DNA from: Antedon mediterranea
Lineage: Eukaryota > Echinodermata > Crinoidea > Comatulida > Antedonidae
Length of the DNA: 64,000 nt
Reading direction: 5' to 3'
NCBI RefSeq assembly: GCF_964355755.1
Contig: NC_092676.1
Location: forward strand, 28,812,288 to 28,876,287
The notes under the pieces: model-generated
The model's database searches: none
The model's input: the letters and a program-made list of their open reading frames with translations, nothing else
Told to the model about the DNA's origin: nothing
Shown: positions 1-42,400 of the stretch, one piece after another
Numbering within the stretch: the stretch's first letter is position 1
Layout: every line of letters begins with the position of its first letter
Translations under genes and position numbers: made by a program

Positions 1-11426
<11,426 letters not shown>

Positions 11427-37760: not shown

Positions 37761-37829
37761 TTTAGCGACATTACTCATCTTTAGCGACATACCGAGTGAA
37801 TCATCGTATACAGTTGACTTTAGTAAGAT

Positions 37830-40072
37830 ATGGAAACGTTCAGCTTAAATAGACCTTACTCGACAATAGCAGTGTTAATACTGACGGTATATATTGCAAC
37901 AGCATCAACGACAGGCCTAACACACCTTAGGTTAGACAAACGAGGATCCAATGGCCCCAGAGGTAAACTGCTCTCCCTTTTTTTTGTTAGTAGTTTAAGT
38001 CGACTATGGAAGGCAATCGCCGCCAAAATCACAGTAACAAACTTACATTTCTGCGAGACTGCGATTGCCTTCAATAAATAGACGACCCAACACAAAACAA
38101 TCAAATTATAAACCAGGACTAGAGTGAAATGTTAACGTTTCTAAGAGTTTGTGGATTTAGATTCTTTTTTTTTTTTTGGTGGAAGTGTTTTTCTTCTCTC
38201 CAGATAATCCTTTCCTTTTTTCAAAAACAAATTAACCTTTGATAAATCGTTGAGTAATTAGCTTCTAAACAAATTCTTTCATTATGCGACTTATTAATAA
38301 TGTTGTTGTAAAAACATTTCTTCGAACTAGTGATAACCTATGATATTATCATGAGTACGAATGACGCTGAATAGTATTATTGTATTAAATTCGGTCAGTG
38401 TTGGAAGCAAACGATAATTATAGTTACTTGTGAATTGATATATTCTTCCACTGGGAGTGCGCGCCACAACTCAATAGTTTGCATTTGTGACGTTGCTTGT
38501 TCATAATGATTGATTTGTGATGTGTGGGATAACAAGAAATACACTAACTACGTTTTTAATTATTTTTTTTTCAAACTAATTTAAAAATTGTTAACTTTCG
38601 ATCACGATGTTTATTGCTTTAGTTTACCAATGACTAATATATAACTGTATATGTCCTTGTGTTTTTCCACAAGCTTATACGCATGCGTAGAGATTTGGAA
38701 GATAAAATCATGAATACGCATGCGTATAAGCTGACGCTTTCGATTCGCGCGAACAAATTCACCTCTAGTGGAAAATCAGCAGGTTTAACTGTGTTTAAAA
38801 TGTTTGTTTTAAATCTTTTAGTTCAAGTTTGTCAATGTGGTAGCATGGGTTTGCAGAAATGCATGAAGGTGTTTCTTCCCGCCTGTTGTATTCAGCATTC
38901 ATCACTTGGTAGCAGTGTAGTCTGCGCACCAATGGGTAAAAAATCAATGGATGTAAGTATACTCTACAGTTAAAGCATACAAAATGAAGCTGAATACAAT
39001 CGATACCAATTAATCAATCAATTGAATATGCTATTTGTAGTTTTAATAAAGTTTGAAAAAGCTTAATAGAAAGTTTTGATTTCTATCAGAGATGTTTATA
39101 AAGAAGTACCTTAAGAAGTACTTAGTAAGTTACTCTTTTAAGAAGATAATAAATAAATAAATAAATTTCATCTTTACAAAATAAGAAGCTTCGAATATTC
39201 AATCAAGTTATTCACTTTTGCCGAAAAACAAAAATATTGATTTATCTTATAAAAAACAGAATTCCAACAATTGGCTTCCTGATTACTATTAATTGTTTTC
39301 TTGACATTTTTTTTCAGGAAACTAATTTTCTTAGCCTATGCATTAGCTATCTGTGATACTAAAATATGTTTAATCATGTTTATTTCAACAATATGACGTG
39401 AAACTTATTACATTTTTAGGAAGAGTTATTTTTGGAACAGAGCAGTCAATATGAAGATAATATGAACATATATAAGAAATTTAATTTCATCAAAAACTTG
39501 CTTTCATCAAATGAGCTTTTAAATGCCGATACAAGTAAGTCGTTTTGTGCTTTTTGTTAGTAGGCCTATTATGACAGATAATGAAATGCAATGAAAAAAA
39601 ACTTTATTGATTTTAAACAAGCTAGAATTATTTCAAAAGTATACTAGTGTTATTTGAAAACGATTACGGGTGTACAAATTAATTTTATAGATTTAATAGA
39701 GCAGTTCGGCTCTGAATAAACTCTACAAAGTTCTTATAAAATCCGAGTAAAATTATGATTAGTTAAAATCATAGTATTCCACGATATTTCTATATCTGAT
39801 TTATGACAACATTAATGTATGATTCATTTTAATGATAAAAAAAATCATTACACTAATCACAAAGAAGGGTTCGGCTTCTGATAAAATCAGATTTGTTGAT
39901 AAATGACCAAATCATACGTCATCAATCATATCATACGTCATCAATCATATCATACGGACGCGTGCATTCAATCAATATTAAATTTAATTCAAATAAATAT
40001 TGATGCCGTTTATTTTTCTTTAAAGTAGTTCCACATCTATTACAAGACGATAGCAGTGAAGACAGGTTTTGA
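37830..40072 (+). CDS. Secreted six-cysteine amidated peptide precursor, family unknown
   Basis: Four coding exons (37830-37962, 38822-38952, 39420-39534, 40026-40072) join in phase to 141 residues. Residues 1-26 are a clear signal peptide (VLILTVYIATAS core). A Lys-Arg at 37-38 is followed by a 44-residue peptide (39-82) with Cys at 48, 50, 58, 66, 67 and 79, then Gly83-Lys-Lys. That is a typical prohormone convertase and amidation site, so Met82 would be amidated. Residues 86-141 form an acidic C-terminal part with another Lys-Lys near 108. The spacing is C-x-C-x7-C-x7-CC-x11-C-x-P-x-G. The last part (CC-x11-C-x-P-x-G) resembles the first half of prokineticin-type domains, but the other cysteines of that fold are absent. 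AATAAA at 40227-40232 fits the 3' end. It is probably a neuropeptide, hormone or host-defence peptide. I do not recognise a named family. Confidence 0.75.
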
Positions 40073-40226: not shown

Positions 40227-40232
40227 AATAAA
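40227..40232 (+). terminator. Polyadenylation signal of the secreted peptide gene
   Basis: AATAAA, 155 bases after the TGA stop at 40070-40072. It would give a compact 3' UTR. Confidence 0.6.
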
Positions 40233-40495: not shown

Positions 40496-40627
40496 GTAGT
40501 AGTAGCGGCAATAAATAAAAAGAGATTAACATTAGGATTGATTAGATTTTAGAAAATGTTACCACTGCTATTTCCTTAGGAGGCTGAAGAAATTACTTTA
40601 TTTTAAATAGGTCTACTATTATATTAA

Positions 40628-41266
40628 TTTACAATAAAATTTAATGACAAAAAACAAGAAGATCGACGTTTCGGAACCATCATGGAACCATTTTCAAGAT
40701 CAAGTGATTGAATTATACAAAGTAGAAAGTTAGGTGAAATTCTTAAATCTAAAAGAAAACCTATGACCGAAATCAGCAATGCGTTGTATATAAATTTCAA
40801 TGTGGTTTGTGCGATACAAACTATGTCGGCTATACTTGTCGGCACCTTCATCAACGTATTGATGAACACAGTAAAGGCACCATAGGAGAGCATTTAAAGC
40901 AACATAATATAAGTCCTATTGAAACTTTTAATCATTTCAGGATATTGTCAAGTGCAAGTGCAAATCCAAATTTGATTGTTTAATTAAGGAAATGCTCTGG
41001 ATCAAAGAACTGAAACCTACACTTAATAAACAAAAAGATTCAGTCAAAGCTAAATTGTTTATTAATTAAGAGGGAGGAGCTTAATAACTTAAGTTCTTAG
41101 AATTGTAGACCTTCTTTGTTGTTAATTAACCAATTAATTAGTATTTCCTGTCACCCTTTGGTGTTTGTTATTTTTGTATAATTCAATCACTTGATCTTGA
41201 AAATGGTTCCATGATGGTTCCGAAACGTCGATCTTCTTGTTTTTTGTCATTAAATTTTATTGTAAA
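40628..41266 (+). mobile_element. Penelope-like retroelement remnant (GIY-YIG endonuclease end)
   Basis: An inverted repeat of about 90 bp ('acaataaaatttaatgacaa' ... 'cgacgtttcggaaccatcat' and its reverse complement at 41176-41266) flanks a fragment read on the plus strand from about 40776. It gives FQCGLCDTNYVGYT...RHLHQRIDEH and then KEMLWIKELKPTLNKQ. A Cys-Cys finger, the YVGYT form of the GIY-YIG start, an Arg-rich helix and the C-terminal 'LKPTLN' are typical of the endonuclease domain of Penelope-like elements. The copy has a frameshift near 40955 and no reverse transcriptase, so it is dead. The cytosine-guanine-rich 'ccgaaacgtcg' in the repeat resembles the 3' strand of hammerhead motifs found in this class. 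Confidence 0.8.
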
Positions 41267-41269
41267 GTT

Positions 41270-42400
41270 ATATAGTAAGTGTCTATTAATTTATATTAAT
41301 TTAGCACTTTAAAATAAGTCTTCCCAAACGAATTACTTATTATTAAGAAATATTTTACAAAATATATCATTTAATATCGCAGGGGAAAAACGGTAAACAA
41401 AACCTCGGCAAAAGCGCGTAAACTTCTAATTTTAAAATAAAAATGTTTGTTATAAGGAAAAGAAATGAAGAAAAGTGTTATTAGTTATGCATGAGCGCCT
41501 TCTACGATATAAGTTAGATGGTAGACTGTTTAGGGTGATGTAACGACTAAGTTTAAACATTGTACTACTAATTAATCAATATTTTCTTGTATTTTTGTTT
41601 TGATTGTACATAACTTATTTAATACAGAGAGTGATAACAATTCTGAAAACAGAAATAAATGCTAAGAAACACGAATTGTTTATTGATGTTTATTTTCTTT
41701 GTACTATATTATTTTGTATATATTACATTACGCTTAATAGTAGTTTTAATGTTTTAACCATGGATATACGTACACCAAGTAACATAAACAAACATAGAAC
41801 GTTTATAACTTATGTGCGTTAAAATGCATAGTTAATTTAATCCTTATTGCAATTTTGTTTTAATACGTCGAGTTTTAATTTTCAACTGAGTTGATACTAA
41901 GAACATACTCAAGCAAGTTATATAATAAATATATGTTTTAAAATGTTTCTTTAAATCGGTAAAGCAACTTCAACTTTCTTATTTAATTAGGAAGACAAAT
42001 TCTAACCACCCAGCGACCTCATCTAGCTATGCCTCAAATGGGCCTATAACGTTCTCCTAGTAACCAAAAAGGAAGAACATCTGATGTATTTTTAATACAA
42101 ATTACTTTGCCATATTTGGACGGTAGACCACCGACGTTAAAAAGTTCATCTAGACTCCAGACAGCAGTTTTAATATTCTAGGTGGCGCTGTGTTTGATTT
42201 CAATGAACAACTCACAGTGCTCTATCTCGATTGCCAATGACTGGAAAGATGCGACTAGAGAAAGAAAAAATAAGGAACAAAAATATACGCAAATTAGTCA
42301 TTTCTCGCATTTTAAAAGTATACAGCGCGTACAAAAAACGTTTACATTCGCGTTAAAGTTTCTACTGAATTTTTGAAGTCTTTTTAAACTTTAAAAAAAG
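41270..42400. other. Intergenic, no supported gene
   Basis: AT-rich sequence between the Penelope remnant and the 3' end of the CNBD2-like gene. The short ORFs (41604-41822 and 42182-42376, plus strand) show no similarity or splice context that I can support. Confidence 0.5.

Follow-up and report, generated by a model that had tools for sequence, protein, structure and literature searches.

Gene Structure and Precursor Organization

The window, i.e., the whole stretch of 64,000 nucleotides of Antedon mediterranea DNA that was analyzed, contains a gene for a cysteine-rich secreted peptide at 37830-40072 on the forward (+) strand. Its four coding exons rejoin in frame to give 140 codons and a TGA, and all introns are GT-AG with phases 1/0/1, which bears out the four phase-consistent coding exons proposed by an earlier sequence-only reading. 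An in-frame TAA is located at 37824-37826 and the ATG at 37830 is the first ATG after that stop. Coding exon 1 (37830..37962) encodes the signal peptide, a short spacer, a KR site, and the first residues of the peptide (GSNGPR). After intron 1 (37963..38821, phase 1), coding exon 2 (38822..38952) provides all six of the six cysteines together with the predicted GKK amidation and cleavage site. Intron 2 (38953..39419, phase 0) is followed by coding exon 3 (39420..39534), which encodes the bulk of an acidic C-terminal propeptide. Beyond intron 3 (39535..40028, phase 1), coding exon 4 (40029..40072) encodes the end of the acidic tail and the TGA. The first polyadenylation-type hexamer 3' of the stop codon is an AATAAA at 40227..40232.

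The precursor reads METFSLNRPYSTIAVLILTVYIATASTTGLTHLRLDKR / GSNGPRVQVCQCGSMGLQKCMKVFLPACCIQHSSLGSSVVCAPM / GKK / SMDEELFLEQ...SSEDRF. The hydrophobic core of the signal peptide, IAVLILTVYIA, spans residues 13-23 and the KR cleavage site corresponds to residues 37-38 (37938-37943). The cysteine-rich 44-mer that follows (residues 39-82) has the spacing C-x-C-x7-C-x7-CC-x11-C. It ends with Met82, whose codon ends at 38934, and is followed directly by GKK (residues 83-85, at 38935-38943). The 44-mer contains three K/R and zero acidic residues and has a pI of 8.7, while the C-terminal tail (residues 86-140) has 12 D/E versus 4 K/R. Thus, the signal peptide, KR, 44-residue six-cysteine segment, GKK, acidic tail, and AATAAA described by the sequence-only reading were all located, and the cysteine spacing is exactly the one claimed. 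That reading also implied a five-exon transcript. Only four exons are coding; a fifth would have to be untranslated, and no sign of such an exon was seen.

All three donors score highly, at the 97.7-99.1 percentile among the GT dinucleotides of the window. Of the acceptors, the second is good (96th percentile) and the other two are no more than moderate (75th for acceptor 1 and 81st for acceptor 3). The GC content of exons 1 and 2 (0.44 and 0.43) is above that of the introns (0.24-0.33), whereas that of exon 3 (0.27) is not raised. Exon 3 is the least certain exon, and exons 3 and 4 are less certain than the remainder of the gene. If exon 2 is left unspliced and intron 2 is retained, the frame reads GKKSMDVSILYS and then a stop. 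Because this alternative precursor ends soon after the peptide, the peptide itself is independent of exons 3 and 4.

Reality of the Gene and Its Surroundings

Dinucleotide-preserving shuffles of the window, read on both strands, were used as the null model. An open frame with six cysteines within 40 amino acids plus G[KR][KR] is found once in the window and was found twice in 150 shuffles. When an acceptor and a donor are added to the same pattern, none of the 150 shuffles contains it. Within the 2 kb 5' of exon 2 there is one exon that starts with ATG, encodes a hydrophobic signal core and a dibasic site, and ends in a phase-1 donor; none of 1000 shuffles has such an exon. The layout is not due to chance, because neither the peptide core with its splice sites nor this type of first exon was seen in the respective shuffles. 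In addition, exon 1 and exon 2 agree in phase and the processing sites abut the cysteine segment exactly on either side. It is very unlikely that the locus holds no functional gene and that its open frames are a chance or decayed set. The moderate acceptors 1 and 3 and the 27% GC of exon 3 would fit such decay, but the shuffle results for exon 1 and the peptide core argue against it, as do the lack of any stop or frameshift, the exact bracketing of the cysteine-rich part, and a precursor that is complete from ATG through poly(A) hexamer. The six-cysteine peptide gene is, with high confidence, real; the confidence is lower for exons 3 and 4.

The assembly searched has 18 contigs and a total of 354 Mb. 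With either the whole precursor or the peptide as query, this locus is the only one recovered among the best-scoring candidates, a measure that a distant paralogue could escape. A weak extra tblastn match on C11 (E 2.7) was rejected, as it is a coiled-coil-like exon without the cysteine framework. A DNA search found the exons to be free of repeats, and the sole interspersed repeat of the gene lies in intron 1 at 38672-38780. This repeat is palindromic, MITE-like, and about 110 bp in length, with dozens of copies spread over most chromosomes. A fragment of a GIY-YIG endonuclease (PF01541, E 4.6e-4, marginally under the cut-off) lies a short way downstream of the gene, at 40617-41277. It is enclosed by a 105-nt inverted repeat pair with 97% complementarity and possibly comes from a Penelope-like element. 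Elsewhere, the window begins with a DDB1/CPSF1-type beta-propeller exon (1-480), which is followed at about 1300-3500 by repeats that can be read as protein units in one frame. An Rfam search of the window returned no match.

Searches for Known Families

Pfam and NCBIfam searches with the precursor and with the peptide found no relative, and PDB sequence matches at E 0.4-2 were to enzymes and were dismissed as chance. The precursor does not match the eclosion hormone-type model (PF04736), and a genome search with that model does not return this locus. An AlphaFold2 model of residues 46-81 has three short strands and a mean pLDDT of 54, which is too poor to assign a fold. The main text of the crinoid neuropeptidome describes known families plus twenty further precursors, and the cysteine-containing ones among these twenty have 2, 4, or 8 cysteines (PMC9793003). 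No six-cysteine 44-mer is among the crinoid precursors described in that main text. The earlier proposal of an unassigned amidated secreted peptide agrees with these results: the host is an echinoderm, the precursor matches no family tested, and it does not appear among those that PMC9793003 describes in its text. The same reading held that the cysteine pattern does not match known cysteine peptides. This has to be qualified, since the orexin of the same genome shares C-x-C-x7-C and is likewise an amidated six-cysteine peptide.

In ambulacrarian orexins the cysteines number six and an amidation site is present. In crinoid AmOX one residue separates the first two cysteines, according to the text of PMC9793003. 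Orexin was first suspected because of these separated first cysteines. The cloning primer of the A. mediterranea orexin precursor (one match, no mismatch) led to the true orexin gene of this genome, at C2:26271875-26272108. This gene encodes a signal peptide and a 36-residue amidated six-cysteine peptide in one exon, with the spacing C-x-C-x7-C-x5-C-x-C-x6-C. As the true orexin sits there, the six-cysteine gene was rejected as the orexin of this genome. The orexin model of Pfam has no match over the genome, and it is blind to the real crinoid orexin as well.

Could the peptide nevertheless be a known cysteine-rich neuropeptide in strongly diverged form, whether an additional orexin, a trissin, or a prokineticin that has been shortened? 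We consider this unlikely. Kinship to orexin is suggested by the first three cysteines (C-x-C-x7-C), the total of six, the C-terminal glycine, and the presence of two orexin genes in other echinoderms; one orexin gene only was found in this genome. Against it, the peptide departs from the ambulacrarian orexin pattern (CC or C-x-C, x5-7, C-x5-C-x-C-x6-C), agreement is limited to the first C-x-C-x7-C, and the last three cysteines are misplaced. The alignment is no better than chance, with 0.91 of shuffles scoring as high, while a control orexin pair (crinoid versus sea cucumber) beats all 2000 shuffles. Thus, kinship to orexin is not supported by the sequence and the remaining spacings. Trissin has a framework that we take to be C-x2-C-x3-C-x3-C-x7-CC. 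Its C-G, x6, C, x7, CC can be superposed on the peptide, but the similarity is equalled by a fraction of 0.15 of shuffles. No deuterostome orthologue is known for either trissin or its receptor (PMC11087051).

Prokineticins have been reported from ambulacrarians (PMC11521371). The genome has a prokineticin/astakine-type domain exon at C9:25299660-25299893 on the minus strand (PF06607, E 8.9e-8). The N-terminal half of this domain reads C-x5-C-x8-CC-x10-C-SPLG, versus C-x7-C-x7-CC-x11-C-APMG in the peptide, so that CC-x10/11-C-x-P-[LM]-G is common to both. However, the pairwise shuffle fraction is 0.07, uncorrected and obtained after several tries, four of the ten cysteines are missing, and neither precursor nor peptide matches PF06607 up to E 10. 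This likeness is not significant and is suggestive at most. A related proposal is that the peptide represents an undescribed disulfide-rich amidated hormone family, perhaps specific to crinoids, in which a possible I-IV, II-V, III-VI knot resembles half of a prokineticin/colipase domain and the extra first cysteine replaces a lost partner from the second half. We regard this as decidedly unlikely, and the knotted topology itself is speculation that would apply if the half-prokineticin likeness were real.

A Putative Peptide Messenger

The precursor has the features by which neuropeptide and peptide-hormone precursors are recognized, namely a signal peptide, basic cleavage sites, limited length, and an amidation glycine, all of which are predicted from the sequence. 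Gene layout, processing motifs, single-copy status, and the lack of a detectable known family are what the analysis shows directly. We favor, with some confidence, a single-copy gene of this crinoid that encodes a secreted messenger precursor whose product would act as a neuropeptide or hormone, and the peptide is probably an undescribed one. By established peptide biology, the signal peptide would be removed and prohormone convertases would then cut at KR (37-38) and GKK (83-85). The lysines would be trimmed by a carboxypeptidase and the exposed glycine would be amidated by PAM. The released product would be a 44-residue peptide with a Met-amide C-terminus and three disulfide bonds, for which a monoisotopic mass of 4533.06 Da is calculated. 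This peptide, free of acidic residues, is probably packed with the acidic C-terminal propeptide in secretory granules for regulated release, and it would act on a receptor at the cell surface, with a GPCR as the most likely candidate.

Alternatively, the gene might encode a host-defence (antimicrobial) peptide, stabilized by disulfides, made with an anionic propiece, and released by coelomocytes or epithelium. This is unlikely, but part of the evidence is compatible with it. Acidic propieces are found with defence peptides too, and an acid-free peptide with an acidic tail of 12 D/E would fit a hormone whose spacer is acidic as well as a defence peptide whose propiece neutralizes it. Messenger precursors usually combine amidation with a dibasic site on each flank of the peptide, and AMP genes often occur in families, whereas the present gene is single copy. 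Strongylocins of the sea urchin likewise have six cysteines in three disulfides, but sea-urchin AMPs contain 23-29% positively charged residues versus 3/44 K/R here, and the strongylocin propiece comes before the peptide (PMC4805251), while the acidic piece of the crinoid precursor comes after it. The low charge of the 44-mer favors a signalling peptide. The messenger reading is likelier than the defence reading because K/R content is low compared with sea-urchin AMPs and because the exit from the precursor is amidated and dibasic.

Other Neuropeptide Genes and Significance

Among living echinoderms, crinoids are sister to all the rest. The published list of crinoid neuropeptides is mainly transcriptome-based, and the six-cysteine gene suggests that reading the genome can find precursors missing from that list. 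A further orphan amidated cysteine-rich peptide is also an added candidate ligand for orphan receptors.

Several known crinoid neuropeptide genes were seen in the same genome. The kisspeptin-type peptide QTSSCSHNACLRILPF, which follows LRIKKKPK, and the PCNP5 peptide GHPKSNFILMP are identical to the Antedon mediterranea sequences given in the text of PMC9793003. Together with the orexin primer match, they place the genome in A. mediterranea or a very close relative; a COX1 search detected no mitochondrion in the assembly. A PCNP4-like precursor at C3:159149-159229 lies in a frame that is open for 463 codons and apparently holds several related copies of a peptide, where the description of AmedPCNP4 in PMC9793003 has just one.

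Comparison With Known Systems

AmOX of Antedon mediterranea and AjOX1 of Apostichopus resemble the six-cysteine precursor in having a signal peptide, a single six-cysteine peptide, and a dibasic site directly after the C-terminal Gly, and AmOX starts with the same C-x-C-x7-C. AmOX continues with x5-C-x-C-x6-C, whereas the six-cysteine peptide continues with x7-CC-x11-C and shows no residue similarity to it. Moreover, signal and peptide of AmOX are encoded in one exon, while an intron parts KR from the cysteines in the six-cysteine gene. Trissin of arthropods also has six cysteines, and its CG-x6-C-x7-CC stretch is superposable, but its third cysteine is missing from the crinoid peptide, which adds a cysteine at x11 and an amidation site. 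The prokineticin/astakine/colipase domain resembles the peptide's C-x7-C-x7-CC-x11-C-x-P-[LM]-G in its N-terminal half. It is a ten-cysteine domain, whereas the peptide has six cysteines, an extra first cysteine, a GKK ending, and no Pfam match. Strongylocins share the six cysteines, a size of about 5 kDa, and a propiece. They differ in being far more cationic, in a mature peptide that begins at Trp, and in a propiece that precedes the peptide (PMC4805251). The further crinoid precursors in the text of PMC9793003 come from the same organism group and are recognized by the same criteria, and several are orphan amidated peptides, some of them cysteine-containing. The described ones have 2, 4, or 8 cysteines and none has six in 44 residues. 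The gene is best read as encoding a signalling peptide that is amidated, rich in cysteines, and an orphan, which makes it a credible addition to a familiar kind of gene and not a new kind of system.
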